Assembly (NCBI RefSeq): GCF_004364435.1
Contig: NZ_SOCT01000001.1
Coordinates: 806,001 to 870,000, forward strand
Direction of reading: 5' to 3'
Length of the DNA stretch: 64,000 nt
Origin: Pseudomonas sp. LP_7_YM
GTDB lineage: Bacteria > Pseudomonadota > Gammaproteobacteria > Pseudomonadales > Pseudomonadaceae
How positions within the stretch are numbered: position 1 is the stretch's first letter; each line of letters begins with the position of its first letter. The notes below the pieces were generated by a model. That model saw only the letters and a list, made by a program, of their open reading frames with translations, did not search any database and was not told where the DNA came from. The translations under genes were made by a program, and so were the position numbers. Positions 592-56,048 of this stretch are shown in pieces.

Positions 592-614
592 GAACATTAA
601 TAAATAATGTGTGC
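592..614 (+). promoter_or_regulatory. Cluster operator site A (GAACAT-N11-GTGTGC)
   Basis: Matches the shared dyad at the ACA-N13-TGT core, but the right arm is weak at its end. TGAACA could serve as -35 with AGTATT (615-620) as -10, 18 bp apart. It lies 130 bp upstream of the SDR start and 280 bp upstream of the DUF1302 start. Confidence 0.5.
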
Positions 615-675
615 AGTATTGCCCTGTCGGCCAACGTGCGCAAGGGCGCCAGGTGATCGAGCTGAACGCAGTAAA

Positions 676-717
676 GAATTCTGTATATAGAACGTAAATC
701 TTTATGTGGAATTCTGT
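676..717 (+). repeat. Direct repeat GAATTCTGT, 33-bp period
   Basis: Two identical 9-bp copies, 676-684 and 709-717, start 33 bp apart, about three helical turns, upstream of the DUF1302 operon. The spacing would suit a dimeric activator binding one DNA face. The function is inferred only. Confidence 0.35.
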
Positions 718-872
718 GAAAAGATCAATTACCTTGAGATTCAGCTGACGAGGTGGCGGCAAGCCGAGGTGGAAATAGCCTCAGGCGCCCATCGTCCGGG
801 CTGCAATCGAAGCGATCTATCCTCGGGGCAGAACGCGAACCAGCAGGGCCCGGATGCACATAAACGACTGAA

Positions 873-883
873 AATAAAAATAA
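873..883 (+). promoter_or_regulatory. CA motif (Hfq/Crc site) of the first DUF1302 gene
   Basis: AATAAAAATAA fits AANAANAANAA and sits just upstream of the AAAAGGT ribosome-binding region and the ATG at 896. Confidence 0.6.
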
Positions 884-895
884 AAGGTAGTTTGC

Positions 896-2557
896 ATGAG
901 AGACATGACCAACCCGGGTCGCGTAGCGTTGACCCATGGTGCGATCACCCTGTTGATGCTGGGATGCGGGCAAGGTGCGATTGCCGCATCCTTCGACCTG
1001 CCTAACCCTGACTACCGTCTGCGCTGGGACAACACCGTGCGATACAACCTGGGCATGCGTACCGACGGCCAGAACAGTCGCATCATGAATACCCCCAACT
1101 ATGACGAGTCGGACGGCAAGTTCGGTCGGGGCGATATCGTGACAAATCGGCTAGATGTGTTAACCGAAATCGACTTCTCCTACCTCAACGACTGGGGCGC
1201 ACGTTTGAGCGCGGCCGGCTGGTACGACCAGGCTTACCATGACGACAACGTCAAAAGTAACGTGCCCGGCTACGCCACCAGCTATCAAAACGATCATTAC
1301 AGCGGCGAGGTGAAACGCTACGTGCAGGGACCGTCGGGTGAGATCCTCGATGCGTTCCTGTGGCGCAACTTTGTCATCGGCGACACGCCGGTCAACGTGA
1401 AGGCTGGTCGGCACACCAACTACTGGGGCGAAGGCCTGTTGTTCGGTGCCCATTCGGTTTCCTATTCCCAGGCCCCGAGCGATGGTGTGAAGGCGGCCAC
1501 CAGCCCTGGCATCGAAACCAAGGAAGTGTTTTTGCCGGTCGGACAGGTGTCGGCCAAGGCACAGGTCACCGACAGTCTGTCGGTCGCCGGTCAGTACTTT
1601 TATGAGTGGGAACCCACCCGGATTCCCTACGGCGGTACTTATTTCGGCGGCGCTGACCCATTGTTCGAGGGGCCTGATCGCCTGCCGCTCGCGGCCAACG
1701 GCTCGGTGTTCCAGCGTCAGAATTCGCGCTTTGGCCGCGACGGCAAGAACTGGGGCGTCATGGCCAAACTCAACGTGGAAGCACTGGAATCGACCATCGG
1801 CGCCTACTACCGCGAGTTCGATGACTACCAGCCCTGGCTTGCGCCGCAGATCAAGGCCTCTTCCGGGTTGTACCGGGTGGTCTATCCACGAGGCGTGAAA
1901 CTGGCGGGCTTGAGTTTTTCCCGGGTGATCAACACTGTCGCGGTCGGTAGCGAGGTGTCCTATCGCATGAACGGCGCCCTGAACGCCACCGGGGTCAGCA
2001 CCGTCGACAACGAGGGTCCGCGCGGCGATACCTTGCACTTCGTGGCCAATGCGGTGTACGGCGTGCCGCGTAACTTCATTTCGGAAAATGCCACGCTGGT
2101 CGGCGAATTCGCCTACAGCCACCTGCTGCGTGTCACTGAACATGACGAGCTGTACAAAGGCGCCGGGACTGCCGCCTGTACCAACGCCCGCACGCCCACC
2201 CTCGCCGGTTCCGGCAGTGAGTCGGACGGCTGCTCTTCGAAAAACTACTACGCGATGGCGGTCAACTACACCCCGCAATACCTCTCGATCTTCCCTTCGT
2301 GGGACCTGGATGTCCCGCTGACCGTCAACTACGGCCTGCACGGTAACGCCCCCACCGCGGGCGGCGGTAACGAAGGCGCGCTGGCCTATTCGGTCGGCGT
2401 CAAGTTCACCTACGCCCAGCTGTATGAATTCGGTCTGCGTTACGCCGACACCGAAGCGCGCTCCAAAAACCTGGGCAACGGGACGATCGCCGGCAACGGT
2501 AACGTCGGCGGCACGGATCGCGGATGGCTGGCGTTCACCTTCAAAACCTCATTCTGA
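896..2557 (+). CDS. DUF1302 family outer-membrane protein (copy 1)
   Basis: Predicted outer-membrane beta-barrel protein of the DUF1302 family, 553 aa. The N-terminus has a hydrophobic stretch (residues about 12-30) ending near AIAASFDL, consistent with export. The mature part opens with RWDNTVRYNLG, and the C-terminus ends in LAFTFKTSF; a terminal Phe is the usual barrel-insertion signal. Start ATG 896 is preceded by AAAAGGT. The second copy at 59377-61032 matches over most of its length, and both are followed by a DUF1329 gene. The family is recurrently encoded beside DUF1329 and RND pumps in clusters for hydrophobic substrates, so a role in moving a lipophilic substrate across the outer membrane is inferred, not proven. 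Confidence 0.88.
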   Translation: MRDMTNPGRVALTHGAITLLMLGCGQGAIAASFDLPNPDYRLRWDNTVRYNLGMRTDGQNSRIMNTPNYDESDGKFGRGDIVTNRLDVLTEIDFSYLNDWGARLSAAGWYDQAYHDDNVKSNVPGYATSYQNDHYSGEVKRYVQGPSGEILDAFLWRNFVIGDTPVNVKAGRHTNYWGEGLLFGAHSVSYSQAPSDGVKAATSPGIETKEVFLPVGQVSAKAQVTDSLSVAGQYFYEWEPTRIPYGGTYFGGADPLFEGPDRLPLAANGSVFQRQNSRFGRDGKNWGVMAKLNVEALESTIGAYYREFDDYQPWLAPQIKASSGLYRVVYPRGVKLAGLSFSRVINTVAVGSEVSYRMNGALNATGVSTVDNEGPRGDTLHFVANAVYGVPRNFISENATLVGEFAYSHLLRVTEHDELYKGAGTAACTNARTPTLAGSGSESDGCSSKNYYAMAVNYTPQYLSIFPSWDLDVPLTVNYGLHGNAPTAGGGNEGALAYSVGVKFTYAQLYEFGLRYADTEARSKNLGNGTIAGNGNVGGTDRGWLAFTFKTSF

Positions 2558-2587
2558 CAAATCCAATAAGAATCGGAGTAAGCCTGT

Positions 2588-12266: not shown

Positions 12267-12911
12267 TCAGCTACGGGCTGTGGCAGCAATGCTCGCCAGC
12301 ACGAAATCGACTGAGTGCTCGCGCCACACGTGCAGGCCTTCTTCGGAGTAGGTCGCAAGGCCGGTCAGGGCAGACGTCGAGTAGCGATTGGTAAACCAGC
12401 CCGTGGTCACCAGCGCGGCGGTGGCGAGGAACAGTGGGGCATCGAGTCCGTGCTTGAATTCGCCGGTCTCGGCGCCGCGCTTGAGCAAGGCGTCAAGCTT
12501 GTCGATCAGCCGCGGTGCCAGTTCCAGAAAGTGATTGCGCGGGGTCTGGTGGGCGTCGTGATAGCGGATGCCTTCCAGCGCCAGCGAACCCATCAACGGG
12601 TCATCGCGGTATTGATCGAAAAAATGATTGAGCACCTGACGCATGGCCTGGGTGGGGCTGAGGCTGTCCACGTCCAGGGCCACCAGTTCGGACATGATCT
12701 GATCCGAGGCTTCGTCGAGCACGGCGACGAACAAGCCTTCCTTGGTGCCGTAATAGTGATGAATCAGCTGTTTGGTCACGCCCGCGTCGTGGGCAATGTC
12801 GTCGATGCGTGCACCCGCCAGCCCATGTTCGGAGAAGGCTTGCCGGGCGGCGGCCAGAATGCGCTTGAGGGTGTTGAGCTTGCCGGCTTCGGGTTGTGCA
12901 GGGCTTTTCAC
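12267..12911 (-). CDS. TetR-family transcriptional regulator
   Basis: 214 aa from a GTG at 12911, selected because GGAGAG sits just upstream; an ATG at 12995 is possible but gives a 28-residue extension without family character. The helix-turn-helix is seen in IDDIAHDAGVTKQLIHHYYGTKEGLF (in pieces: IDDIAHDAGVT, then QLIHHYYGTKE). The rest is a helical ligand-binding domain. It diverges from the P450-1 operon, and a short palindrome TGCCG-N4-CGGCA lies 64-77 bp upstream. It likely represses its own gene and/or the P450-1 operon; the main cluster operator is not found here. Confidence 0.9.
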   Translation of the reverse strand: MKSPAQPEAGKLNTLKRILAAARQAFSEHGLAGARIDDIAHDAGVTKQLIHHYYGTKEGLFVAVLDEASDQIMSELVALDVDSLSPTQAMRQVLNHFFDQYRDDPLMGSLALEGIRYHDAHQTPRNHFLELAPRLIDKLDALLKRGAETGEFKHGLDAPLFLATAALVTTGWFTNRYSTSALTGLATYSEEGLHVWREHSVDFVLASIAATARS

Positions 12912-12974
12912 CAGGTCTCTCCATGGGCTGTTCTTGTTATGCCATGGCAGGCCCTTGCCACGGTTCCGACACAC

Positions 12975-12988
12975 TGCCGCCGACGGCA
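12975..12988. promoter_or_regulatory. Short palindrome TGCCG-N4-CGGCA between tetR and P450-1
   Basis: A perfect 5-bp dyad in the 236-bp divergent gap. It could be the TetR operator, but the arms are short and GC-rich so chance is not excluded. Confidence 0.25.
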
Positions 12989-13147
12989 CAAACACGCAAT
13001 GGGCGGATGCACTTTATTGCCTGCGGCGTTTCGTTTGACGCAGCGTCCAACGAATTGAACACGCGCTGGACAGCCTTGTGGATACCATCCGCCAGCACGT
13101 CATTGATCGACAACGCCCATAAAAACGACAACAAAAAGGTAGCAAGC

Positions 13148-18287: not shown

Positions 18288-19025
18288 ATGGAAGCTCTGG
18301 GGATGGATTACAGGCATGGCGAGTGGATCGGTCGTCATTGCCACGCCGAGGATCAGTTGATCTACGCCACCCAAGGGGTGATGCAGGTGCGCACCGAACG
18401 GGGCAACTGGATTATCCCGAGCGGGCATGCGCTGTGGGTGCCCGCTGGCGTGGGCCATGAAATCCGCATGAGCGGTGACGTGTGCATGCGCACGCTGTTG
18501 TTGCCCGCGCAGGAACGGCCCTGCCAGGTCATCGAGGTGCCAGCCTTGCTGCGCGAACTGATTCTTGCGGCGCAGCGCCTGCTCCTCCCGGATTCCACGC
18601 CCTTGGCCGGGCATCTCCGCGCGCTGGTGCTGCACGAACTGGTCAACGCCAGGCGCGTCGTCTCGCACATTCCCATGCCGCGTCTGCCACGCTTGCTGCA
18701 ACTGTGCGAGCGCTTTCTCGACGATCCGGCGCAGGACGTGTCGCTGGACGAGTGCGGCGTACGTTTGAACATGAGCGCACGCACGGTGGCGCGGCTGTTC
18801 CAGCGCGAGCTGGGCATGACCTTCGCGGAATGGCGGACCCACGCCCGCATGATCCTCAGTCAGCAACGCCTGGCGGACGGTGCGCCCATCCTCCATGTGG
18901 CGCTCGAACATGGTTATCAGAGCGCCAGCGCATTTGCCGCCGTGTTCAAGCGCGTGCTGGGCTACACGCCGCGCGACTGTCGCGCAGGCAGACGTGAAGC
19001 GCCCCGAGCCGCGTCGCTGCATTGA
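18288..19025 (+). CDS. AraC-family regulator with N-terminal cupin
   Basis: 245 aa. Residues about 8-60 form a cupin-type sensing domain (GRHCHAEDQLIYATQG, IIPSGHALWVPAGVGHE). The C-terminal 100 residues carry two helix-turn-helix units (MSARTVARLFQRELGMTF and the ALEHGYQSASAFAAVFKR motif). ATG 18288 follows GAGGGA; a downstream ATG at 18303 is also possible. It sits directly upstream of, and parallel to, the tripartite efflux operon. Two AGGTTGTC repeats 21 bp apart in that gap are plausible binding sites, so it probably controls the pump. Confidence 0.9.
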   Translation: MEALGMDYRHGEWIGRHCHAEDQLIYATQGVMQVRTERGNWIIPSGHALWVPAGVGHEIRMSGDVCMRTLLLPAQERPCQVIEVPALLRELILAAQRLLLPDSTPLAGHLRALVLHELVNARRVVSHIPMPRLPRLLQLCERFLDDPAQDVSLDECGVRLNMSARTVARLFQRELGMTFAEWRTHARMILSQQRLADGAPILHVALEHGYQSASAFAAVFKRVLGYTPRDCRAGRREAPRAASLH

Positions 19026-19080
19026 CCTCGCACGCCAGCAGAGCCGTACCGGTCGCTTGCCGAGCCCTCCCAGGCTGATC

Positions 19081-19109
19081 AGGTTGTCTTGATCACGCGC
19101 AAGGTTGTC
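19081..19109 (+). promoter_or_regulatory. Direct repeats AGGTTGTC, 21-bp period (candidate AraC site)
   Basis: Identical 8-mers at 19081-19088 and 19102-19109, two helical turns apart, lie 70-98 bp upstream of the efflux operon and just after the araC-type gene. Tandem direct half-sites at this spacing are the normal AraC-family target layout. Confidence 0.45.
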
Positions 19110-19178
19110 CGGTTTCGAGCAGAACGGGCCCGATTTGCTCGCTAGTCTGGCTGTCCATTCTTCAGGCGCTTACTCGCA

Positions 19179-20672
19179 ATGCCCGAACCTCAACCTTGCT
19201 TGCGCCTGGCCTGGTCGCCAGTTGTTGTGACGCTGGCGCTGACCCTGTGCGGCTGTGCCACGCCAACCGCACCTGGGGCGTCCCTTGGCACGGCGTCGGT
19301 CAATCCGTTGCTGTCGCTGCCGGCGGGCGTCAGCCATCAACCGCTGCCAGCCCGCTGGTGGCAACTGTATGAGGACCCGACATTGAATCACTGGGTCCAG
19401 CAAGCCTTGGCGCATAACCAGGACCTGGCCGCCGCCCAGGCCAACGTGCAGGCCATGCTCGCTGGCATCGGCGAATTCGAAGGCCAGCGCTGGCCGGCGA
19501 CTTCGCTGGGCGTGGCGGCGGTGTACGGCAGGACCGCCGATGACCAGACACTGGCCCAGGCACGCGGTCGGCAGGCGCCCGCGCAGTGGGAGTTCAACCC
19601 CGGCGCGGAGCTGGCGTATCAGCTGGACGTTTGGGGTCAGGTGCGCAATTCGATAACGCGTGCACAGGTTCAGGCCCAGGCAGCCAGCGAAGCCTACGAC
19701 CTGCTGCGCATCAACGTGGCCAGCCAAACCAGCCGCGCGTATATCGAGCAATGCACAATGGGTGCGCGCATTGAGGTGACACGACGCTCATTGCAAACCC
19801 TGGACCGAAGTGGGGCGTTGAGCGAGCGCCAGCGTCAGGCCGGGATTGCCACCGAGCTGGACGGCGCACGCTTGCGAAGCCTGCGTGAGCAGGTCAGTGC
19901 CGAATTGCCCCTGCTCCAAGCACATCAGCGCATGGCGCAGTACGAACTGACGATGCTCAGCGGCCAGTCCGATGCGCCCTCGGACGCCGAATCCGCAGCC
20001 TGCAAGACCATCCCAGCGCTTAACAGGCCATTGCCCGGCGGTGACGGTTGGCACCTGCTGCAGCAACGCCCCGATGTGCGCCAGGCCGAGCGCGAACTGT
20101 CGGCGAGCCTTCTGGAGGTCGACATCGTCAAGGCTGACCTTTATCCCAAGGTCAGCTTCGGCGCGTCGCTGACCTCGTCCAGCCATCGGCTTAACGGGCT
20201 GGGCGACAGCCATGCGGTGATGTTTGGCATTGGTCCGTTGATCAGTTGGCAATTCCCCAATCTGCACGCCAATCGTGCCCGGGTCGGCAAGGCTCAGGCG
20301 CTGGCAGAGAGCCAACAGGCGACCTTCCACAGCGTGGTGCTGGCCGCTTTGAAAGACGTGCGGCAGGCATTGGCGCTGTATGACGGCGAGCGGCAGCGCC
20401 AGCAGGCCTTGACCCTGGCCTTGCAGCAAAGCCAGCGCAGCTATGAATTGGCCGAGGATGGCCTGCGCGCCGGCAGCGTGGATGGCCTCGCACTGCTCGA
20501 CAGCGAGCGCGATCTGATTGCCGTCCGCGCTCGTACAATCGATGCGCAAGGGCGCCTGGCCCTCAGCGAAATCAACCTGTTCAAAGCCTTGGGCGGCAGC
20601 TGGCAGAGCGACGCCCGACTGGGCGTGGCATCGCCTGCGGCCCTCATTCACGCTGCCGGAAACCCGCCATGA
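19179..20672 (+). CDS. Outer-membrane efflux lipoprotein (NodT/OprM type)
   Basis: 497 aa. The signal sequence ends in LTLCGC with a lipid-attachment Cys26. It has the repeated structure of outer-membrane factor proteins (two OEP repeats): LNHWVQQALAHNQDLAAAQANV at the start of the first, and QQRPDVRQAERELSASLLEVDIVKADLYPKVSFG, read in parts, at the start of the second. It forms the outer-membrane channel of a tripartite pump. Its stop overlaps the start of the fusion-protein gene (ATGA, 20669-20672), so translation is coupled. Confidence 0.93.
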   Translation: MPEPQPCLRLAWSPVVVTLALTLCGCATPTAPGASLGTASVNPLLSLPAGVSHQPLPARWWQLYEDPTLNHWVQQALAHNQDLAAAQANVQAMLAGIGEFEGQRWPATSLGVAAVYGRTADDQTLAQARGRQAPAQWEFNPGAELAYQLDVWGQVRNSITRAQVQAQAASEAYDLLRINVASQTSRAYIEQCTMGARIEVTRRSLQTLDRSGALSERQRQAGIATELDGARLRSLREQVSAELPLLQAHQRMAQYELTMLSGQSDAPSDAESAACKTIPALNRPLPGGDGWHLLQQRPDVRQAERELSASLLEVDIVKADLYPKVSFGASLTSSSHRLNGLGDSHAVMFGIGPLISWQFPNLHANRARVGKAQALAESQQATFHSVVLAALKDVRQALALYDGERQRQQALTLALQQSQRSYELAEDGLRAGSVDGLALLDSERDLIAVRARTIDAQGRLALSEINLFKALGGSWQSDARLGVASPAALIHAAGNPP

Positions 20673-21820
20673 ACATTGCTGTGGAAAAAGACCCTGTTGT
20701 CGGCCCGGGCACTGCGTCGCGCGCCGATCTCCGCCCGAGCCGCCAGCGCTGGTGGATGCTGGGCGGCGCTTGCCTGGCCGGTTTGGGCATCCTGGCGTGG
20801 GGCTTTTATTGGTTCGTCAGTGGGCAGCATTTGCAGACCACCGACGATGCTTATGTGCGCGCCGACTGGGTGGCGGTCAGTGCGCGGGTCAGCGGCTATG
20901 TCGCGCAGGTAGAGGTGACCGACGATCAGCCGGTCAAGGCGGGCGATGTACTGGTGCGTCTTGAAACCCGCGACTACCAGGCAATCTACGAGCAGGCCCA
21001 AGCCGTGGTCGCCGAGGCCGAGGGTGCGCTGCTGGCGGCGCAAGCCCGGCAGCAAGTGGCTGCCGAGCGTGTCGAGCAACAGCGCGAGGCCATCGCCCAG
21101 GCCCGGGCCGCGGTACAAAGTGCGACTGCCGAAGACCGGCGCAGCCAGCTGGACGTGCAACGCTACCGGGGTCTGGTAAGGGACAATGCCGCCACGCAAC
21201 AGCGCCTGGAAACCGCCGATGCCCAGGCGCAGCAGGCACACGCGGCGCTCCAGGGCGCCCAGGCGCGGTTGCGCGAACAACAGGCGTTGCTGGCCGTGAC
21301 GCAAGCGCAGGCCCGATTGGCGGACGTACAGATCAAAGCACGGGCGGCTGCTCAGGCCAGTGCTTTGGCCCGCCGCACGCTGGCGCAGCAGAATCGGCAA
21401 GACACGGTGATTCGTGCGCCGGTCGATGGGGTGGTCGGCCAGCGGCAGGTGCGCAGCGGTCAATACGTGGTTCCCGGCCAGCCGATGCTGGCGGTGGTAC
21501 CGGTGCACCAGACCTATGTGGTGGCCAACTACAAGGAAACCCAGTTGACGCATATGCAGCCAGGTCAGCCCGCGATCATTCACGTCGACAGTTTCCCTGA
21601 CCAGGCACTGCGTGGTCACGTAGCCAGTTTCTCCCCGGGCTCAGGCAACGTGTTTGCCTTGCTGCCTTCGGACAACGCCACTGGCAACTTCACCAAGATC
21701 GTCCAGCGCTTTGCCGTGCGGATTGTCCTGGATGAGCCGCAGGCGATTGAGGTCTTGCCGGGCATGTCCGTGACCACCACGGTCGATACCCGCCGTGAGG
21801 CAGGCGCCGATGAGCAGTGA
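20669..21820 (+). CDS. HlyD/EmrA-type membrane fusion protein
   Basis: 383 aa with one N-terminal membrane anchor (about residues 30-52), then DDAYVRADWVAVSARVSGYVAQVEV, typical of EmrA-type lipoyl domains when read in parts. A long Gln/Ala-rich coiled-coil hairpin (about 110-235) follows, then VIRAPVDGVVGQR and a beta-barrel. It bridges the inner-membrane MFS pump to the outer-membrane channel. Its 3' end overlaps the next gene by 11 bp. Confidence 0.93.
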   Translation: MNIAVEKDPVVGPGTASRADLRPSRQRWWMLGGACLAGLGILAWGFYWFVSGQHLQTTDDAYVRADWVAVSARVSGYVAQVEVTDDQPVKAGDVLVRLETRDYQAIYEQAQAVVAEAEGALLAAQARQQVAAERVEQQREAIAQARAAVQSATAEDRRSQLDVQRYRGLVRDNAATQQRLETADAQAQQAHAALQGAQARLREQQALLAVTQAQARLADVQIKARAAAQASALARRTLAQQNRQDTVIRAPVDGVVGQRQVRSGQYVVPGQPMLAVVPVHQTYVVANYKETQLTHMQPGQPAIIHVDSFPDQALRGHVASFSPGSGNVFALLPSDNATGNFTKIVQRFAVRIVLDEPQAIEVLPGMSVTTTVDTRREAGADEQ

Positions 21821-23315
21821 GTTCGCCGTCTCCAAGCGTGCCTGGGTCGCGGTGATCGGTGGCCTGTTCGGCTGTTTCATGGCGGGCATGAACGTGCACG
21901 TCACCAGTGCGGCGCTCCCGGAAATCGAGGGGTCGCTGGGGGCCACGTTCGAGGAAGGTTCGTGGATATCCACCGCGTACCTGGTGGCCGAAATCGTGAT
22001 GATCCCGCTGACCGCCTGGCTGGTCGAAGTGTTTTCGATGCGGCGCGTGATGTGGCTCGGCTCATTCATTTTTTTGCTGGCCTCGGTCGCCTGTTCCTGG
22101 GCGCCGAACCTGCAAGCGATGATCGTTATCCGGGTGATCCAGGGGGCCGCCGGGGCGGTGCTCATCCCACTGTCTTTCCAACTGATCATTACCGAGTTGC
22201 CGCCCGCGAAAATGGCGCTGGGCATGGCGCTGTTCAGCCTGGCCAACAGTGTCGCGCAAGCGGCGGGGCCCTCGATTGGCGGCTGGCTGACCGACACCTA
22301 TTCCTGGCGCTGGATCTTTTACCTGCAGTTGATTCCGGGGGTCGCGCTGCTCCTGGCCATCGCCTGGTCCATCGACGCCAAGCCGATGAAACTCGAACTG
22401 CTGCAGCGCGCCGACTGGTTCGGTATCAGCGCCATGGTCATCGGCCTGGGCAGTTTGCAGATCGTCCTCGAAGAGGGCGGACGCAAGGACTGGTTCGGCT
22501 CCAGCTATATCCTCGGTATGTCGATCATCGCTGGCGTAGCGCTGAGCGGATTCGTGCTGGCGCAGCTGTATGGCTCGCGTGCCTTTATCAACCTGCGACT
22601 GCTGCGGCGCTACAATTTTGGCGTCGCCAGTGTGGCCATGTTCACCTTCGGCGCCGCTACGTATGGGCTAGTGTTTCTGGTGCCCAACTATCTGTCGTTT
22701 CTGCAGCACTACAACGCAGGTGAAATCGGCATCACGCTGATCGCCTACGGCATGGTGCAGCTGCTGTTGGCGCCCCTGATGCCGCGCCTGATGCGCTGGT
22801 CCAGTCCCAGGATAATGGTGGCCAGTGGTTTCGCAATCATGGCCCTGGGCTGCTGGCTGGGCGCGCACCTGAACGCTGACAGCGCGGCCAACGTCATCAT
22901 TCCCTCCACAGTGGTGCGCGGTATGGGGCAGCCCTTGATCATGGTGGCGTTGTCGGTTCTGGCCGTCGCCGGGCTGGAAAAAAGCGAGGCGGGGGCTGCT
23001 TCGGCGTTGTTCTCCATGCTGCGTAATCTGGGCGGGGCTGTCGGTACCGCTGCTTTGACCCAGATCGTCGCGATGCGCGAGCGCTTCCATTCCGAGCGGC
23101 TGAGCGAGCATGTCAACGTCTTTTCCCCTGGCGTGCAGGAGCGCCTGGGCCAGGTGGTGCATACCTGGCTGCCCGCGCAACAGCAAGCCCTCGGCGCACT
23201 GGCCGTGACCATCAGGCGCGAAGCGTATTTGATGGCGTACAGCGATGCGTTTTACCTGGCCTGTCTGGCATTGGCGGGGTGTGCGCTGGCGACCGCGATG
23301 ATGCGCCAGCGTTGA
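21810..23315 (+). CDS. EmrB-type MFS drug/proton antiporter (DHA2, 14 TM)
   Basis: 501 aa from ATG 21810 behind GAGGCAG; a GTG at 21795 is less well placed. It has about fourteen hydrophobic segments and the DHA2 hallmarks SWISTAYLVAEI in helix 2 and VIQGAAGAVLIPLS in helix 4/5. With the two upstream genes it forms an EmrAB-TolC-like pump. In this setting it probably expels toxic diterpenoids or acidic intermediates; no CA motif is present, unlike the catabolic genes. Confidence 0.92.
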   Translation: MSSEFAVSKRAWVAVIGGLFGCFMAGMNVHVTSAALPEIEGSLGATFEEGSWISTAYLVAEIVMIPLTAWLVEVFSMRRVMWLGSFIFLLASVACSWAPNLQAMIVIRVIQGAAGAVLIPLSFQLIITELPPAKMALGMALFSLANSVAQAAGPSIGGWLTDTYSWRWIFYLQLIPGVALLLAIAWSIDAKPMKLELLQRADWFGISAMVIGLGSLQIVLEEGGRKDWFGSSYILGMSIIAGVALSGFVLAQLYGSRAFINLRLLRRYNFGVASVAMFTFGAATYGLVFLVPNYLSFLQHYNAGEIGITLIAYGMVQLLLAPLMPRLMRWSSPRIMVASGFAIMALGCWLGAHLNADSAANVIIPSTVVRGMGQPLIMVALSVLAVAGLEKSEAGAASALFSMLRNLGGAVGTAALTQIVAMRERFHSERLSEHVNVFSPGVQERLGQVVHTWLPAQQQALGALAVTIRREAYLMAYSDAFYLACLALAGCALATAMMRQR

Positions 23316-25835: not shown

Positions 25836-27116
25836 TCAGGTGGGTGCCGCCATGGCCGCGCCGTGGAAGCGCGGCGCGCGGCCCAGCATGAGCAGGAGCA
25901 AGGGGCCGATCAGGCAGCAGACCATGCAATACACCAGCATCGCAGAGTAGTCGCCGTTGCGACTGAGCATGAAGGCGAACAGCAGCGGTGCCAGGGCCGA
26001 GGCCACGGTATTGAGGCCCTGATGCACGCCAAACAGACGGCCGTACTCACGCAGACCGAAATAGCGGGCCACCAGGAATGCCGCGATGTCGAACTCGGCA
26101 CCCGCGCCGAAGCCTACCAGCATGGCGGCCATCAGCAGCATCTGGAAATCCGTGGTGCCGCTCAGGTAAATCATGCAGCCCACCGCGGGCATCATCAGGC
26201 TGGCGGCAGCCACAGCGGGCGGCCAGAGACGGTCGAGCAGGTAGCCGATCAGCATCCGGCCCACGATCAGCGAGATGCCGAAACCGCTGAAGATCAGCCC
26301 GGCATCGGCCGCGCTGAGCCCTTTGGACTGCAGCAGCGGGATGGTGCTGGTGACCATGCCGACCACCGACGATACCACCAGGGACAGTGCCAGGTTGCAG
26401 ATCCAGAACTTGCCCGAGCGCATGCCCTGGCGAAAACTCATGCCGGGCAGGGCGAGCAGCAGGTCATCCGCCGTATGCTCGCTGTGGGTCGCAGGGCGAC
26501 CGACGACCTCGGGCAGCCGGAACCACAGCAGGGTCAGCGGCAGCAGCACCACCAGATTGAGGATGGCGAGGATGATGAACGCCGCGCGCCAGTCCCACTG
26601 TTCGATGCCCCAGGTCATCAGGCGCGGGATGATCGCTGCGGTCAGCCCGGTGCCCGACAGGCCGATGGCCAGCGCCAGGCCACGGTTGCGCTCGTACCAA
26701 AGGCTCAACAGCTGCGTCCAGGTCACCGCCAGGGTGCCCATACCAACGATGGGTAACAACGCAAATGCCAGGTACATCGACCAGATCGACGGGGTCAGTT
26801 GGGTGGTCGCCAGATAACCGAGCACCAGCAACAGCAGCGAGACCACCGTTACGCGCTTGATGCCATAACGAAGGTTGAACCAGCCGACCAACTGCAAGGA
26901 AATGACCGCGCCGCCGAACAGAAAGGTGATACACGCCTGCAATTCCGGCTTGGTCCAGCCGAACGCCTGATTGAGCGGCACCACCAGCGTGCCGAAGCCA
27001 TACAGCAATGCGGCGTTGATGCTGACAGCAACACCGGCGAGGGACAGGATGAGGATTTTCCAGGCGCTTCGAAATTCGGTGAAATCGATCGCCGCTTCGT
27101 TTTTCGAAGGGGTCAT
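25836..27116 (-). CDS. Major facilitator superfamily transporter (12 TM)
   Basis: 426 aa, ATG behind AAGGAAG. About twelve hydrophobic segments. It is a paralogue of the MFS at 16437-17699 (shared AALLYGFGTLV and PL-AFGW motifs, and the same AGAEFDIAAFL-ARYFGLR block near residues 320-340). First gene of the minus-strand operon and divergent from ditA3, with two operator copies in the shared gap. It probably imports the acidic substrate or a pathway intermediate. Confidence 0.91.
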   Translation of the reverse strand: MTPSKNEAAIDFTEFRSAWKILILSLAGVAVSINAALLYGFGTLVVPLNQAFGWTKPELQACITFLFGGAVISLQLVGWFNLRYGIKRVTVVSLLLLVLGYLATTQLTPSIWSMYLAFALLPIVGMGTLAVTWTQLLSLWYERNRGLALAIGLSGTGLTAAIIPRLMTWGIEQWDWRAAFIILAILNLVVLLPLTLLWFRLPEVVGRPATHSEHTADDLLLALPGMSFRQGMRSGKFWICNLALSLVVSSVVGMVTSTIPLLQSKGLSAADAGLIFSGFGISLIVGRMLIGYLLDRLWPPAVAAASLMMPAVGCMIYLSGTTDFQMLLMAAMLVGFGAGAEFDIAAFLVARYFGLREYGRLFGVHQGLNTVASALAPLLFAFMLSRNGDYSAMLVYCMVCCLIGPLLLLMLGRAPRFHGAAMAAPT

Positions 27117-27278: not shown

Positions 27279-27301
27279 AGACATAAATCGAATATATGTT
27301 C
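27279..27301 (-). promoter_or_regulatory. Cluster operator site B (AGACAT-N11-ATGTTC on +)
   Basis: Read on the minus strand it forms TGAACA, 18 bp, then ATTATT (27278-27273), a -35/-10 pair aimed at the MFS operon. The dyad arms occupy the -35 and the end of the spacer. Confidence 0.6.
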
Positions 27302-27437: not shown

Positions 27438-27460
27438 TTACACATGAATAGAAAGTGTTC
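27438..27460 (+). promoter_or_regulatory. Cluster operator site C (TTACAC-N11-GTGTTC)
   Basis: TTTACA as -35 and ATTATT (27461-27466) as -10 with an 18-bp spacer, 38 bp upstream of the ditA3 start. The dyad would place a bound repressor on the ditA3 promoter. Confidence 0.6.
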
Positions 27461-27497: not shown

Positions 27498-27734
27498 ATG
27501 AGTTCAGACAAACCGCAATTCAAAGTCGTCGCCGACCGTTCGCGTTGCTGCGGCTATGGCCTGTGCGCAGCCGTATGCCCAAGCCTTTACAAGCTTGATG
27601 ACGATGGTCTGGTTTATCTTGACGATGACCGGGTGCCACCTGAGCTTGAAGAGGAGGCACGCGAAGGCGCTGCCGCCTGTCCTGCCGAAGCGATCTGGCT
27701 GGAGCCCCTGGATACCCCCGAAAACGCTGCCTGA
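27498..27734 (+). CDS. ditA3: Ferredoxin of aromatic-ring dioxygenase, [3Fe-4S]/[4Fe-4S] type
   Basis: 78 aa from ATG 27498 behind AAGGGAG; the frame extends upstream to 27417 but that region is the promoter. Cysteines 17, 23, 27 and 61 (C-x5-C-x3-CP...CP) give a [3Fe-4S] or atypical [4Fe-4S] site: the second canonical ligand position holds Tyr20, while an extra Cys18 sits beside Cys17. This differs from the Rieske or plant-type ferredoxins of most ring-hydroxylating dioxygenases and matches what is known of DitA3 in Pseudomonas abietaniphila. It should donate electrons to DitA1A2. It heads an operon with an SDR, ditC, an FAH protein and an MFS. Confidence 0.88.
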   Translation: MSSDKPQFKVVADRSRCCGYGLCAAVCPSLYKLDDDGLVYLDDDRVPPELEEEAREGAAACPAEAIWLEPLDTPENAA

Positions 27735-32147: not shown

Positions 32148-32957
32148 ATGCCTCGCACCAAGACCGACAACACAGGTTCACAGTCCCCTGATACGCCCGA
32201 TAACCAGAAGGGCGCGGTCAGTGTCAAACCGGTTTCAAACGCCATCCGCATCCTTCGCCACCTCAGTCAGGCCGGAACCCCCGAGCGTTCCGTGGACCTG
32301 GCGCGTATTCTGGGGATCAACCCCAGCACCTGTTTCAATATCCTGCGCACGCTGGTCATGGAAGACGTGGTCGATTTCAACCCGCTGTCCAAGCGCTATT
32401 CGGCAGGGCTGGGCCTGGCCAGGCTGGTCGAGCAATGGGTGACTCAGGGCCAGCGCGTGGCCTTCGCCAAGCCGCTGTTGCAGGATCTGGCCGCGCGCAT
32501 GCGGGTCACCGTGACCTTGTGGCGGCGTATGGGTGCGGACCGCATCGTGATCGTCAGCTCGGCAGCAAGTCCCACCGACGTGCGCATCGACATGGCCGAA
32601 GGGCAGCGTCTGCCGATTCTGATGGGCGCCAGCGGACGGTTGTTCGCCACCCAGCTGGACATGCAGGACGCCCAGGTCAGGGAGGATTTCGAGACCATTC
32701 GCTGGGCCAGGCCCTTGCCGTTCGAGGTCTATCGGGTTGAGGTGGCGCTGGCCGTGGAACGCGGTTGGGCGGTGGATGACGGCTATTTCTCGGTGGGCAT
32801 CCTGGCAATCGCGGCGCCGGTTTATTCGCTGTCCGGCAACATCGATTTCACCGTGTCCGCCGTGTTGTTCAGGGGCCAGCGCGATGAGGAAGGGATCGAA
32901 GAGATCGGCGCCGCATTGGTAGCGTTCTGCGCCGAGCTGAGCAAGGTGCTGTTCTAG
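32148..32957 (+). CDS. ditR: IclR-family transcriptional regulator
   Basis: 269 aa. The N-terminal winged helix-turn-helix spans about residues 25-88 (AIRILRHLSQAG, DLARILGINPSTCFNILRTL). The C-terminal IclR effector domain follows (ADRIVIVSSAASP, LPILMGASGRLFA). Known DitR of P. abietaniphila is an inducer-dependent activator of ditA3, and this gene holds the matching position downstream of the ditA3 operon. No copy of the cluster dyad was found in its own 98-bp upstream gap. Confidence 0.88.
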   Translation: MPRTKTDNTGSQSPDTPDNQKGAVSVKPVSNAIRILRHLSQAGTPERSVDLARILGINPSTCFNILRTLVMEDVVDFNPLSKRYSAGLGLARLVEQWVTQGQRVAFAKPLLQDLAARMRVTVTLWRRMGADRIVIVSSAASPTDVRIDMAEGQRLPILMGASGRLFATQLDMQDAQVREDFETIRWARPLPFEVYRVEVALAVERGWAVDDGYFSVGILAIAAPVYSLSGNIDFTVSAVLFRGQRDEEGIEEIGAALVAFCAELSKVLF

Positions 32958-34638: not shown

Positions 34639-34661
34639 GTACATATTTTAAAAAAGTGTCT
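34639..34661 (+). promoter_or_regulatory. Cluster operator site D (GTACAT-N11-GTGTCT)
   Basis: TGTACA as -35 and TATATT (34662-34667) as -10, 18 bp apart, pointing at the SDR-FAH pair; the dyad also faces the DUF35/thiolase-like pair. Confidence 0.6.
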
Positions 34662-36496: not shown

Positions 36497-36519
36497 ATAC
36501 ATTCTTTTTGATTCTGTCT
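36497..36519 (+). promoter_or_regulatory. Cluster operator site E (ATACAT-N11-CTGTCT)
   Basis: TATACA as -35 and TATATT (36520-36525) as -10, 18 bp apart, about 45 bp upstream of the ditA1 start; the sequence after the dyad (TTATATT) is the same as at site D. Confidence 0.58.
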
Positions 36520-36569: not shown

Positions 36570-37979
36570 ATGCTAACAAGAACAAGCCCCGTACTGTCTG
36601 ATGGAACCAAGGTCGCTGACCTGATTTATCCTTCTACACGCGAAGTGCAGATGCGCGTGCTGTCGGACCGTGAAATCTACGAAATCGAGATGGAAAAGAT
36701 CTTCGGCAAGATCTGGGTCCTGCTGGGCCATGAATCCGAGATTCCGAATTCCGGTGACTTCATGGTCCGCGACCTGGGCTCGGATTCGGTCATCATCGCT
36801 CGCGATAAGGAAGGCGAGGTGCATGTAACCCTCAATGTCTGCCCTCATCGCGGCATGCGCATCAGCACTGCCGATTGCGGCAACACGCAAATCCATAAAT
36901 GCATCTATCACGGCTGGGCGTTCCGTCCCAACGGTGACTTCATCGGCTCGCCGGTCGAGCGCGAGTGCATGCACGGCAAGATGCTCCCCAAGGAGCAACT
37001 GGGCCTGAAAAAAGCCAGGGTCACGCTGTACGGCGGCTTGGTGTTTGCCACATGGAACGTTGACGGGCCATCTTTCGACGAATTCCTCGGCGATGCCAAG
37101 TGGTACTACGACATGCTGTTCCTGCGCACCGACAAAGGCATGGAAGTGCTCGGCCCGCCGCAGCGCTTCATCGTCAACGCCAACTGGAAGACCGCCGGTG
37201 AGCAGTCTGCTGCCGATGGTTTCCATACCCTGACGCTGCATCGCTGGCTGGGCGAGGTCGGTAACTATGCCAAGAAGGATGAGAACGGCCAGAGCGCTGA
37301 TCTGAGTCCTGAAATGTACGGTGTCGAGATCAGCTCGCCTCATGGTCACGCACTGCGGTGCATCGACCTGGCACGCAAGATCAAGCGCCTGACCGGGCTG
37401 GACCCCGAATCGCTGACGGTCGAGCAGAAGCTTCAGGCGCTGCCGCCCGCCGGGATGACCGCCGGGATGGTCGAACAGCTGGCGCGTAATCTCAGTGAGG
37501 ACCAGCTCAAGGTCCTGACCAGCATGCCTCCGCAGGTCGGCGGCATGTTTCCGAACATTCTCTTTGGCTTTGTTTATATCCCGCAGCCAGACGGCACCGT
37601 GGTCGGTTCGATGACCCTGCACGCCTATGTGCCCCAGGGGCCGGACAAACTGGAGTTCGTGAACTGGATCTTCGCCGAAAAAGACGCGCCGCCCGAACTG
37701 CGGGAAAAAATGCTCAGGCAGACCATTCAGTTGTTCGGTACTTCCGGCATGGTCGAGCAGGACGACTCCGACACCTGGCCGCACATGACGCTCGCCGCCA
37801 AGGGTGCGATGGGTCGCAAGAGTACGCTCAAATACCAGGCCGTGTTCGAAACCGGCGCCCCGCAAGGCTGGCCTGGGCCGGGCATTGTCAACGAGGGCTT
37901 CACCAAGGACGACACCCAGTGGCATTGGTGGCTGTACTGGCACGAGCTGATGACCGCGCCCGTGGATGAGCCGCAGTAA
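36570..37979 (+). CDS. ditA1: Ring-hydroxylating dioxygenase, alpha subunit
   Basis: 469-aa Rieske oxygenase. The [2Fe-2S] site is C91-x-H93-x17-C111-x2-H114; the mononuclear iron site is H219 and H224 (ADGFHTLTLH, with bridging Asp216) and an Asp in the EQDDSDTW segment. Together with the beta subunit it makes DitA, which in P. abietaniphila hydroxylates 7-oxodehydroabietate at C11/C12. ATG 36570 follows GGAGG. A CA motif AACAAGAACAA lies inside codons 2-6, an unusual place that would still block initiation. The upstream site E carries a promoter. Confidence 0.94.
   Translation: MLTRTSPVLSDGTKVADLIYPSTREVQMRVLSDREIYEIEMEKIFGKIWVLLGHESEIPNSGDFMVRDLGSDSVIIARDKEGEVHVTLNVCPHRGMRISTADCGNTQIHKCIYHGWAFRPNGDFIGSPVERECMHGKMLPKEQLGLKKARVTLYGGLVFATWNVDGPSFDEFLGDAKWYYDMLFLRTDKGMEVLGPPQRFIVNANWKTAGEQSAADGFHTLTLHRWLGEVGNYAKKDENGQSADLSPEMYGVEISSPHGHALRCIDLARKIKRLTGLDPESLTVEQKLQALPPAGMTAGMVEQLARNLSEDQLKVLTSMPPQVGGMFPNILFGFVYIPQPDGTVVGSMTLHAYVPQGPDKLEFVNWIFAEKDAPPELREKMLRQTIQLFGTSGMVEQDDSDTWPHMTLAAKGAMGRKSTLKYQAVFETGAPQGWPGPGIVNEGFTKDDTQWHWWLYWHELMTAPVDEPQ
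36575..36585 (+). promoter_or_regulatory. CA motif inside the first ditA1 codons
   Basis: AACAAGAACAA starts 5 nt after the ATG begins; the encoded residues are Leu-Thr-Arg-Thr-Ser. Hfq/Crc binding here would mask the start. Confidence 0.55.
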
Positions 37980-39562: not shown

Positions 39563-39585
39563 GGACACTATATCGGATAATGTTC
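39563..39585. promoter_or_regulatory. Cluster operator site F (GGACAC-N11-ATGTTC)
   Basis: Lies between divergent DUF2889 and SDR genes. On the minus strand TGAACA and AAATAA (39562-39557) stand 18 bp apart, and on the plus strand TGGACA is followed by ACATATAC (39586 on), so both directions are possible. Confidence 0.58.
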
Positions 39586-39635: not shown

Positions 39636-40436
39636 ATGGGCCTGCTGCAAGAACAAGTGGCGCTGATTACCGGCGCCGGTGGGGGTATCGGGCGGGGTGT
39701 GGCATTGAGCTTCGCCAAGCAGGGCGCTGCCGTGGTAGTGGCGGAGCTCGACGAGGTCAGCGGCGCGGCGGTGGTCGAGGAACTCAAGGCGTTGGGCGCG
39801 CAAGCCTTGTTCATCAAGACCGACGTCAGTTGCAAGGCGGACATTCAGGCGGCGGTCGATGCCGCGGTCGAGCATTTCGGCGGTCTGGACATTCTGGTCA
39901 ATAATGCCTTCGCGCCAACCCCCAATGTGCTTCTCGAAGAAAAGACCGACGACATGCTGGAGCGCACGCTGAACTCCACGGTCTGGGCGGCCTGGTGGTC
40001 GATGAAAGCCGCATTCGCGCCGATGCAGGCGCGCGGTGGTGGCAAGATCATCAACTTTTACTCCATCGATACCGAAGTCGGCGCGTGGCTGCACGGCGAC
40101 TACAACACGGCCAAATCGGCCGTGGTGGGGCTGACGCGCAGCGCTGCTTCGGAATGGGGACGCTTCAACATTCGGGTCAATGCCATTGCGCCGACCGCAA
40201 TGGGCGCGACCTTTCACAAGCTGGCGAAGGAGAATCCGGGGTTTGCTGAAATGTCTGCCGGCTTGCGCCCTCTGGGGCGTTGTGGCGATCCGGAAGAAGA
40301 TATCGGTCCGGTGGTGGTGTTTCTGGCCTGCGAAATGTCTCGCTTCGTCACCGGAGAAACCCTGCACGTGGACGGCGGTTTGCACCTGCCAGGCTACAAC
40401 TCGCGGCCTGCGCACATTCCTGCGCGCGAGTACTGA
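39636..40436 (+). CDS. Short-chain dehydrogenase/reductase
   Basis: 266 aa from ATG 39636 behind AAGGAG; upstream in-frame ATGs (39537, 39603) lie in the promoter and CA motif. Features: TGAGGGIGRGVA, ILVNNAF in place of NNAG, active-site YNTAK, FVTGETLHVDGG. It is monocistronic, convergent with the CoA ligase. A hydroxy-diterpenoid dehydrogenase role is likely; substrate unknown. Confidence 0.92.
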   Translation: MGLLQEQVALITGAGGGIGRGVALSFAKQGAAVVVAELDEVSGAAVVEELKALGAQALFIKTDVSCKADIQAAVDAAVEHFGGLDILVNNAFAPTPNVLLEEKTDDMLERTLNSTVWAAWWSMKAAFAPMQARGGGKIINFYSIDTEVGAWLHGDYNTAKSAVVGLTRSAASEWGRFNIRVNAIAPTAMGATFHKLAKENPGFAEMSAGLRPLGRCGDPEEDIGPVVVFLACEMSRFVTGETLHVDGGLHLPGYNSRPAHIPAREY

Positions 40437-42124: not shown

Positions 42125-42306
42125 GAATATCTCCTTTTGTAAGGCGCACAATGAAGAGGGCGCCCAAATCTTGTTTTGATGAGAGAACTGGATTCTATGG
42201 AAAGATTTTGGAAAAGTCTCTAGCCGGAAGTTGAACAAATTCCGCGCGAAATGCTTAATTCGTATGCTACCTTGGCCCATCGAAATGTCCACGAGTCTGC
42301 TTATCC

Positions 42307-43056
42307 ATGCCAAGACCTCCAAAACAACAGGCCAAACCCGTCGGGCCAAAGGCCGTCAGTGTCGCAAAGGAGACCCCCGCCGCTCCCGCCAAGATCGCGC
42401 GTACAGCCGCCAAGGCGCCTGCTTCGAAAAGTGCTGGCAGCAAAGGTGCGGCAGTGCCGGGCAAGGTCAAACCCAATCGCCGGTCGGAAGAAACCATTGC
42501 CAATATCCTGGTTGCCACCGAAGAGGTGGTGCTGCAGTCGGGTGCCGACCGCATCTCGATTCTCGACGTGTGCAAGGTCGCAGGTGTGTCACGTGGCACT
42601 TTCTATCGTTATTTCTCTTCTCAGGAAGATCTGCTCGATACGTTTTCGCGGCACAAGCGTGACAGCTTCCACGTCTCGCTGACCGAGGCGCTCGTGCATA
42701 TAAAAGACCCCGAGGCGCGGCTCAACGCCTTGTTCGTGTATCTGGACAATTACCTCGAACAGAGCCGTGCACGCCGCTTGCTCGTGGTCGCGCCGGAGTA
42801 CGCACTGGGTTTTTTCAGGCGCATCTTTCATGACTCGATCGTGCGCTTTCAGGACGTGCTGAACATCGTCTTCGACGACTGGGACGAGAAGCTCGGCGTG
42901 CGTCTGGACCGAGAGTTGTTGTGTGAAATGATCATCCGCTATGTCTTGAGCGAAATCCTGGTGCCGGAAAGTGCCAGCCGCCGCCTGTTGCCGATAAGGG
43001 TGAAGAAGCTGGCCGCCGCCATGACCATGGGGTCGACTTCACGCACCCGGCGCTGA
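42307..43056 (+). CDS. TetR-family regulator with basic N-terminal tail
   Basis: 249 aa. Residues 1-55 are a low-complexity Lys/Ala/Pro tail (many AK, KP and PAK runs). The helix-turn-helix follows near 75-110 (ISILDVCKVAGVSRGTFYRYF). The rest is a helical effector domain. It is divergent from the CoA-ligase gene, 182 bp apart; that gap lacks a good cluster dyad but has TTGAACA and an imperfect palindrome ATTCCGCGCGAAAT near 42238-42252. It probably controls the ligase and/or itself. A strong terminator follows. Confidence 0.88.
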   Translation: MPRPPKQQAKPVGPKAVSVAKETPAAPAKIARTAAKAPASKSAGSKGAAVPGKVKPNRRSEETIANILVATEEVVLQSGADRISILDVCKVAGVSRGTFYRYFSSQEDLLDTFSRHKRDSFHVSLTEALVHIKDPEARLNALFVYLDNYLEQSRARRLLVVAPEYALGFFRRIFHDSIVRFQDVLNIVFDDWDEKLGVRLDRELLCEMIIRYVLSEILVPESASRRLLPIRVKKLAAAMTMGSTSRTRR

Positions 43057-43086
43057 AGCGCTTATTTAGACACTTTCATAAAAAAT

Positions 43087-43240: not shown

Positions 43241-43263
43241 GAACACTATTTTGATTTATGACT
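43241..43263 (+). promoter_or_regulatory. Cluster operator site G (GAACAC-N11-ATGACT)
   Basis: One base off the TGT core (TGA). TGAACA with AAATTA (43264-43269) at 18 bp is a possible promoter for the 43.4-48.9 kb operon. Confidence 0.5.
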
Positions 43264-48954: not shown

Positions 48955-48977
48955 GAACACAATCAAATAAAGTGTTT
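48955..48977 (+). promoter_or_regulatory. Cluster operator site H (GAACAC-N11-GTGTTT)
   Basis: AT-rich spacer; TGAACA and AATTTA (48978-48983) are 18 bp apart, 68 bp upstream of the amidohydrolase ATG. Confidence 0.58.
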
Positions 48978-53489: not shown

Positions 53490-53507
53490 GGTAAGGGGAG
53501 AACCGTC

Positions 53508-54632: not shown

Positions 54633-54686
54633 GGTGTGTCCTGACATGACCACCGGTCAAAGCACCCACCATTGAAGGAGACAGGC

Positions 54687-55232
54687 ATGAGCACTTCGCT
54701 GTACGACATCCCGCTGAAACAGATCGACGGCACTTCCAGCAATCTGGGTCAGTACAAAGGCAAGGTTCTGCTGCTGGTCAATGTGGCCTCCAAATGCGGC
54801 CTGACCCCGCAATACGAAGGGCTGGAGAAGCTGTACCAGAGTAAGCATGGCGAGGGCCTGGAAGTGCTGGGCTTTCCGGCGAACAACTTCAAGGAACAGG
54901 AACCTGGCAGCGACAGCGAAATCCAGTCGTTCTGCTCCACCACCTACGACGTGCACTTCCCCTTGTTCTCGAAAATCTCGGTTGCTGGCGCTGACAAGCA
55001 TCCCCTGTACAGCGAGCTGACCGCCGCCCAGCCTTCCGCCACCGGCGATGGCCCGTTCCGCGAGCGTTTGAAGGGCTATGGCATCGAGAGCGGCAACCGG
55101 CAGGAAGTGCTGTGGAATTTCGAAAAGTTTCTGGTCGGTCGCGATGGCAAGGTCATCGGTCGTTTTGCACCGGATGTCGCCGCAGATGACTCACGTTTGA
55201 CAGCCGCCATCGACGAGGCGCTGAAGGCCTGA
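54687..55232 (+). CDS. Glutathione peroxidase (BtuE-like)
   Basis: 181 aa from ATG 54687 behind AAGGAG. Catalytic residues: Cys37 (NVASKCGLT), Gln71 (FKEQEPG) and Trp143 (LWNFEKF). Reduces hydrogen peroxide or lipid hydroperoxides with thiols. It is the last gene of the operon, 54 bp after the ACAD, without a CA motif. A role in removing peroxides formed by flavin dehydrogenases or uncoupled P450 is plausible, or it may be a bystander. Confidence 0.93.
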   Translation: MSTSLYDIPLKQIDGTSSNLGQYKGKVLLLVNVASKCGLTPQYEGLEKLYQSKHGEGLEVLGFPANNFKEQEPGSDSEIQSFCSTTYDVHFPLFSKISVAGADKHPLYSELTAAQPSATGDGPFRERLKGYGIESGNRQEVLWNFEKFLVGRDGKVIGRFAPDVAADDSRLTAAIDEALKA

Positions 55233-55267
55233 TCCTCGCCCAGGCATCTGGTTGCCACTAAGAACAA

Positions 55268-55291
55268 GGCTCTGAACCTGCGTTCAGGGCC
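55268..55291 (+). terminator. Hairpin after glutathione peroxidase
   Basis: GGCTCTGAAC and GTTCAGGGCC pair with one wobble around CTGC. The tail ATTCTTTG is only moderately T-rich, so termination is possible but not certain. Confidence 0.5.
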
Positions 55292-55361
55292 ATTCTTTGA
55301 GTGGCACGTACATAGCCAGTCGCTTGGGCCTACCGCTCGGAAGCGTTCGATGGCAAGCCAC

Positions 55362-55979
55362 TCACATTTCGGGCCAGACCCCGTCGCTCATCAGGGCGTT
55401 GAAGTGGTCGCTGATTTGCGCAGGGTTATGGCAATAATCCTGGCGTACCCACCATAACCACATGGCAAGCAGCCCTCCGACCAAGCTGCGCACGGCGATC
55501 TCGCCGCGCAGCTCATCACCCCGGTAGGTCCCATACCGCTTCAGGTGTTCGCGGACCTGAATGATCAGCAGGTTTTCGAGATGGGCAAGGACGATTTCCC
55601 GCGAGGCGCCGCCCATCAACGAAGTGGTCAGCGCTGCATGGGTGCGGGTGGCCACGAATAACCATCCGCACACGTCTAGCACCACCCGCGGCCGGCCGTT
55701 GCCCGTGCCGGGCTTGACGACCGGATCGCCCATAACGCCGTAGCCTGCGACCAGCAGGTCCTCCTTGTCCCGAAAGTGGGCATAGAACGTCGACCGCGCG
55801 ACACCTGAGCGGTCCAGCAGGTCTTGCACGGTAATTTCCCGATAGTCCTTTTCCAGTGCCAGCTGGTACATCGTGGTCAACATCAGATCCCGCGTGCGTT
55901 GGGCACGCCGGGTATGTCGGTCGGCGCTGGGGTCAAAGGATTCAGGCCATTGGTTCTGCGAGGGGCTGTATTGATTCAT
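55362..55979 (-). CDS. TetR-family regulator; candidate cluster regulator
   Basis: 205 aa from ATG 55979 (MNQYSPSQ); an upstream ATG at 56093 would add 38 poorly supported residues across the operator. Helix-turn-helix: ITVQDLLDRSGVARSTFYAHFRDKEDLL in pieces (ITVQDLLDRSG, STFYAHFRDKE). C-terminal helical domain follows. It is divergent from the GMC operon, and the best dyad of the whole set (site I, 56026-56048) sits 47-69 bp upstream of its start, so autoregulation is likely and control of the other sites is a reasonable guess. Confidence 0.89.
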   Translation of the reverse strand: MNQYSPSQNQWPESFDPSADRHTRRAQRTRDLMLTTMYQLALEKDYREITVQDLLDRSGVARSTFYAHFRDKEDLLVAGYGVMGDPVVKPGTGNGRPRVVLDVCGWLFVATRTHAALTTSLMGGASREIVLAHLENLLIIQVREHLKRYGTYRGDELRGEIAVRSLVGGLLAMWLWWVRQDYCHNPAQISDHFNALMSDGVWPEM

Positions 55980-56025
55980 GGGGGGAATCTCTACGTCAGA
56001 GGCGCGGTTAATTTTTAGAGTTATT

Positions 56026-56048
56026 GGACATATTCTCGAAGAATGTCT
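56026..56048 (-). promoter_or_regulatory. Cluster operator site I (GGACAT-N11-ATGTCT)
   Basis: The most symmetric copy. On the minus strand AAGACA and AATAAC (56025-56020) are 18 bp apart, directed at the TetR gene; it also lies upstream of the GMC operon. Confidence 0.62.

Follow-up and report, generated by a model that had tools for sequence, protein, structure and literature searches.

A recurrent 23-bp dyad and DitK, its candidate TetR-type repressor, in diterpenoid (dit) catabolic clusters

Introduction

Regulators of polycyclic catabolism offer several points of comparison for the system examined here, among them KstR, whose motif is TnnAACnnGTTnnA. KstR and KstR2 are TetR repressors of a steroid catabolic regulon in actinobacteria and have coenzyme A (CoA)-thioester effectors, as set out in the accessible portion of PMC8700777. 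The same portion describes EdcR, the TetR repressor of estrogen degradation in Caenibius, with a putative palindrome common to ring-degradation promoters and a weaker version at the promoter of the repressor itself. Mce3R contains two fused TetR domains and has two nonpalindromic operator sites 53 bp apart (PMC11667970, accessible portion). Here, we analyze a 64,000-nucleotide stretch of Pseudomonas sp. LP_7_YM (NZ_SOCT01000001.1, positions 806,001 to 870,000; hereafter, the window), in which a 23-bp inverted repeat, or dyad, stands before most operons of a predicted abietane diterpenoid (dit) cluster and is probably bound by the TetR-type protein DitK.

The cluster is of the known dit type, with ditA1 and neighboring dit genes present. 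The P. abietaniphila dit cluster closely resembles it: ditA1 is 97% identical, neighboring genes lie in the 21-kb locus examined (L002), and sites occupy matching places. The accessible portions of PMC10710418, PMC13063091, and PMC12628601 make no mention of a dit operator, and the literature matches listed, which did not cover the founding J Bacteriol 2000 paper, include neither a described dit operator nor a function for DitK. The dyad and DitK differ from KstR/KstR2 in occurring in other bacteria and in having another operator. They also differ from EdcR, whose operator, TnnCnnTACnAnTnGTAnnGnnA, has closer half-sites and overlaps the -10 box (PMC8700777, same portion).

Results

The sequence-only reading of this DNA had proposed nine intergenic dyads of fixed geometry. 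All nine 23-mers are present, beginning at 592, 27279, 27438, 34639, 36497, 39563, 43241, 48955, and 56026; eight keep ACA-N13-TGT and the one at 43241 reads ACA-N13-TGA. Each is intergenic, provided that a short-chain dehydrogenase/reductase (SDR) gene starts at ATG 39636, the TetR3 gene at ATG 55979, and the left-edge SDR gene at its visible ATG. We assembled the intergenic DNA of the window (27 stretches, 5,676 bp) after shortening two open reading frames (ORFs; 39537 and 55362), whose automatic starts overran a site, to the ATGs visible at 39636 and 55979, and masking the left-edge SDR gene (bases 1-469). ACA-N13-TGT occurs eight times in this set against 1.0 expected (z 6.9), ranking first among 64 inverted trinucleotide words at 26 spacings (0-25). 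Its z exceeds the largest value (6.47) obtained in 200 order-1 Markov simulations.

The consensus first written for these sites, RRACAY-N11-RTGTYY, is too loose: four of the nine sites fit it exactly, three with one mismatch, and two with two, and when up to two mismatches are allowed it has 56 window matches versus 50.8 in shuffles and so is not enriched. The core RACAY-N11-RTGTY matches 59 places genome-wide, as compared with 28 for a reversed control. Beyond the written consensus, a T lies immediately 5′ of every window site and an A or T immediately 3′ of every one, and both the leading T and an AT-rich core matter to the definition of the site. The larger set of sites from relatives gives T-GWACA-N-WWWT-N3-AWWW-N-TGTYY-W.

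The proposal that the dyad is a candidate regulon operator is supported in that matches concentrate in the cluster relative to sampled genomic DNA and recur before the equivalent operons of related dit clusters. A 23-column weight matrix built from the nine window sites recovers those nine, which is circular for the window, and finds none at threshold 16 in 20 stretches (400 kb) taken from other parts of the genome; the same sample likewise gives zero matches at threshold 14. Matrices from 193 distinct sites in relatives and from 71 non-Pseudomonadaceae sites also recover all nine and none in the 400 kb (threshold 16); because the window matrix served to choose the relatives' sites, these matrices are not fully independent. 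One further place, the one-sided stretch at 43068 beyond the TetR2 stop codon, appears with the 193-site matrix. Across the 5.44-Mb genome, a degenerate pattern derived from the nine sites matches exactly at 10 distinct places, eight of them in the window, where the fit is again circular.

An unfitted palindrome lies 4.5 kb to the left of the window at contig positions 801503-801525 (L101:15503-15525), with one pattern mismatch and a score of 22.5. It lies 51 bp upstream of a gene for a zinc-binding dehydrogenase, and MFS, LysR, and amidohydrolase genes are nearby; this strong site in such surroundings indicates that the cluster and regulon extend leftward of the window. We also inspected five places outside the cluster: C10:6885, C10:45587, and C16:912, which fall within automatically called ORFs, 875110 on the right flank, and C6:213844. 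None adjoins catabolic genes of this kind, and we take all five as chance or unexplained matches. The last (L102:5844) is a strong dyad (score 21) in a gap between cytochrome b561-like and transaldolase-like genes, both named by eye; it resembles site 43241 and is far from the cluster.

Related loci were taken as the best 80 of 141 from one ditA1 scan. In most of these 80 loci, which come from Pseudomonas, Burkholderiales, Thauera relatives, and marine gammaproteobacteria, sites occupy the corresponding promoters. All 80 contain at least one site scoring at least 14 (median 6) with the 193-site matrix, itself built from these loci. Upstream regions were counted with the window-only matrix at threshold 14 over distinct upstreams, the cut-offs being our own choice. 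Sites precede the OB/thiolase genes in 48 of 51 upstreams, one SDR gene in 46 of 47, another SDR gene in 56 of 67, the amidohydrolase gene in 54 of 59, and ditA1 in 55 of 69; column-permuted matrices reach a score of 14 in 0.1-4.2 sequences per upstream set. The SDR/ditA3 upstreams (600 bp), a set with no permuted control, have a site in 42 of 44. Upstreams of internal genes have none (0/68, 0/61, and 0/59), while FAH has 4 in 55 and ditR 1 in 42. The sites precede genes that are likely the first of their operons. For a matrix-free recount, we took the upstream regions of three genes outside Pseudomonadaceae, 85 in all and 50 after similarity reduction; ACA-N13-TGT again came first among dyads, in 32 of 50 against 3.0 expected (z 18.2; maximum of 150 shuffles, 5.1). 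Maps of the comparison genomes G027 and G064 largely repeat the window's site order. All of these are related sequences rather than independent samples.

The candidate binder is TetR2 (42307..43056, plus strand), a 73% identical orthologue of P0016, a protein named DitK in a public record. It has an N-terminal helix-turn-helix (PF00440, TetR_N; 1.2e-10, residues 67-111) and a TetR fold. In the structure model (mean predicted local distance difference test score, pLDDT, of 75), which is all-helical with a C-terminal domain, helices run from residue 58 to 243 and residues 1-53 are disordered, forming an N-terminus that is Lys/Ala/Pro-rich by eye. Foldseek with this model gives TetR proteins as best matches (best E 3.1e-4), with RolR and the KstR-DNA complex (5fmp) among the modest ones, and a PDB sequence search matches mainly the helix-turn-helix part (best E 5.5e-8). 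Asn57, Arg59, and Ser60 at the first helix and the stretch from Ser95 to Tyr100 are invariant in 56 sequences.

DitK orthologues lie inside 72 of the 80 ditA1 loci. For the remaining eight, an orthologue is found elsewhere in the genome in five (52-78% identity) and as a contig-end fragment in one, bringing the total to 78 of 80. We also compared 79 genomes of the same genus, an even sample of a larger group, calling DitK at E <= 1e-30. The three genomes with DitK are those with the highest counts of the AT-core pattern (7, 8, and 8 forward matches versus 4 or fewer in each of the remaining 76), and a reversed-pattern control gives 2, 3, and 1 in these three. Most of their matches are near ditK: 6/7, 7/8, and 6/8 within 54, 83, and 44 kb, respectively. 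The chance of the top three being exactly the DitK trio is 1 in 79,079 as a plain count, related genomes not being independent draws. What this comparison establishes is an association of the sites with the cluster. Separately, a conserved ACACAAAAACAATAACTGTCC matches the AT-core pattern at G027:C1:5813028 and in many same-genus genomes without DitK.

The sequence-only reading had noticed no site at the AraC/efflux, P450-1/TetR1, CoA-ligase/TetR2, or ditR promoters. This stands for AraC/efflux and TetR1, while the divergent CoA-ligase/TetR2 promoter has a weak site (42199..42221, plus strand; score 12.6) that is a candidate for autoregulation. Sites of this type are stronger in some relatives' CoA-ligase/TetR2 promoters, and across distinct ditK upstreams 21 of 60 score at least 14, as compared with 2.2 of 63 for permuted matrices. 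Taken together, we consider it probable that the dyad T-GWACA-N-WWWT-N3-AWWW-N-TGTYY is the operator of the DitK orthologue, the predicted joint repressor of the cluster's dit operons.

The position of the sites suggests how such repression might work. In 91% of 175 sites, partly by construction, at least four of the six bases at site positions 0-5 (T-G-W-A-C-A) agree with a -35 hexamer. A -10-like hexamer begins at +23 to +27 in 138 of the 175, whereas shuffled flanks give a mean of 96 and a maximum of 113. We regard this overlap as support for, rather than proof of, promoter blocking. When resin acid is absent, DitK bound to the dyads would keep the dit operons off; as the first half-site looks like a -35 element with a -10-like hexamer after it, DitK would cover the -35 element and the spacer and so block RNA polymerase. 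A diterpenoid, free or as its CoA-thioester, may then release DitK and turn the operons on, a proposal that draws on the adjacency of ditK to a CoA-ligase gene and on the analogy with KstR/KstR2 (PMC8700777, same portion). With half-sites 16 bp apart, two DitK dimers or the basic N-terminal arms may be needed.

Several observations weigh against DitK as the common repressor. One TetR dimer would not usually span half-sites 16 bp apart. At score 14, 14 of 69 ditA1 upstreams are without a site. Two metagenome bins, L050 and L058, contain sites with a best DitK match of at most 34% identity, though such bins are possibly incomplete. In the window, the ditK promoter has only the weak site, 39 of 60 ditK upstreams score below 14, and among five ditK genes standing apart from the locus, an upstream site of at least 14 is found in L081 and L083 and in none of L082, L084, and L085. 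On the mirror side, the upstream flank has -10-like hexamers in 125 of 175 sites, a count without a control. Judged from sequence, repression rather than activation is only the likely direction of control. Finally, presence across genomes does not entirely distinguish DitK from the cluster's other members.

Foremost among these other members is DitR, an IclR-type regulator by family and place (32148..32957, plus strand; Pfam HTH_IclR and IclR_C), which could bind the dyad as an activator or repressor of the dit operons. A DitR orthologue is present in 51 of the 80 loci. Of 14 additional genomes searched, 11 also have one (58-66% identity), the 15 more loci without a nearby DitR lying outside that search, and the IclR group-2 half-sites TGRAACA/TGTTYCA resemble TGWACA/TGTWCA (PMC8222616, accessible portion). 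Despite the similar letters, the published IclR half-sites are 1-2 bp or W3-4 apart versus 13 bp in the dyad (same portion). A site lies directly before ditR in just the 1 of 42 upstreams counted above, although ditR is possibly co-transcribed with the preceding gene. DitK is favored over DitR because three site-bearing genomes have no good DitR: loci L077, L079, and L080 each have four sites of at least 14 with the window-only matrix, and the best DitR matches in their draft genomes are, respectively, E 1.4e-5, none, and 28% identity at 5.9e-33 (3 of 17 genomes). We therefore judge DitR an unlikely binder.

Less likely still is the LysR-type regulator encoded 2 kb to the left of the window (L101:17532-18455). 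In its favor, it is conserved across many of the related clusters: 20 of 21 genomes yield a match at E <= 1e-50, and 76% identical orthologues adjoin the G027 and G064 clusters. However, none is found at that cut-off in the L059 genome (a metagenome bin), identity is just 43-47% in 6 of the 21, and the 43% match in L077 is comparable to paralogues (41-43%) from genomes in which the true orthologue is also encoded. No site lies within 300 bp before lysR in its own genome, G027, or G064, and LysR boxes have the form T-N11-A, unlike ACA-N13-TGT.

Binding by TetR3 or TetR1 is very improbable. Site 56026 is 46 bp before the TetR3 start and possibly TetR3's own operator, and a weak G027 site (15.0) has a like place; yet all 17 loci examined for TetR3 carry sites, and orthologues (58-65%) occur in only 2 of the 17 genomes tested, with a further one (57%) in G027. 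Orthologues of TetR1 (12267-12995; 65%) are found in the G027 and G064 clusters, whereas the TetR1 promoter has no site and TetR1 is absent from the 80 loci, its whole-genome spread not having been searched. That the pattern merely reflects AT-rich promoters in a GC-rich genome, as overlap with promoter-like sequence and the unenriched written consensus might imply, is scarcely credible given a fixed spacing that tops all dyads in two sets, no matches in 400 kb at threshold 14, and none before internal genes.

DitK itself occurs in fused forms. A single open frame encodes three tandem DitK-like TetR domains at L061:15437-17560 and L060:13581-16427, and P0007 has two such domains. Mce3R is alike in fusing TetR domains and unlike in its two domains and nonpalindromic sites, as compared with three domains and palindromic sites here (PMC11667970, accessible portion). 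L060 and L061 have the highest site counts (9 and 11 versus at most 8 elsewhere) and the most close site pairs (4 and 5 versus at most 2 elsewhere), at spacings of 19, 34, 41, and 66-67 bp. The association of fusion with pairing is only suggestive, since these are two related genomes and since L077-L080, with single-domain DitK, also have one or two close pairs each (32-74 bp, including one each at 32-46 bp), a point against it. DitK may represent a TetR subfamily that reads half-sites 16 bp apart, through N-terminal arms on the AT core or as two dimers, and that in some Burkholderiales became fused into a three-TetR chain clamping paired operators, an idea we hold as speculative and rather doubtful. 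In the Burkholderiales loci L045-L049, L060, L061, and L076, overlapping dyads lie 19 bp apart, mostly with one shared GTAC, giving three half-sites in a row.

The nine sites, all on the plus strand, are distributed along the window as follows, with genes lacking a Pfam match or named record identified by position or provisionally. Site 592..614 precedes a DUF1302/DUF1329/RND operon (896-), and the orthologous G027 site scores 16.7. Two sites lie ahead of ditA3: 27279..27301, between an MFS gene (25836-27116, minus strand) and ditA3, probably serves the MFS gene and is also present in L001-L003, and 27438..27460 lies 37 bp before the ditA3-type ferredoxin ORF (27498..27734, plus strand; 78 aa; Fer4_15, 6.1e-15), the first gene after it and ditA3 by position. 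The best match, 34639..34661, sits between OB-fold/thiolase genes on the minus strand and SDR/FAH genes on the plus strand, and could serve both of these divergent operons. Site 36497..36519 is 50 bp before ditA1 (36570..37979, plus strand; Pfam Rieske), the ring-hydroxylating dioxygenase alpha subunit gene used as the query for related loci, and 39563..39585 precedes the SDR gene at ATG 39636. The TGA variant, 43241..43263, lies between TetR2 and an amidohydrolase operon (43410-). Site 48955..48977, with orthologous sites in G027 and G064, precedes an amidohydrolase/acyl-CoA dehydrogenase operon (49045-). The last, 56026..56048, lies between TetR3 (55362..56093, minus strand; likely ATG 55979; Pfam TetR_N) and the divergent GMC/ALDH operon on the plus strand, and scores below the other eight with the matrices from relatives.

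The window also encodes an AraC regulator (18288-19025). Together with outer-membrane factor, HlyD, and MFS efflux genes (18288-23315), it separates genes whose G027 and G064 orthologues adjoin. Judged from this gene order, the segment is probably an insertion into the cluster, and the dyad site is absent there.

Discussion

We class the dyad and DitK as a predicted catabolic regulon of the TetR type, one whose half-site spacing is uncommon. The dit pathway has so far been known mainly by its enzymes and DitR, and it would gain from this analysis an operator common to the cluster, together with a candidate regulator that has a name. The matrix allows the regulon to be listed in any dit-bearing genome, including genes beyond the known cluster, and the pairing of operator and regulator may offer a diterpenoid sensor. 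The three-domain form of DitK would be a natural example on which to examine DNA reading by fused TetR repressors.

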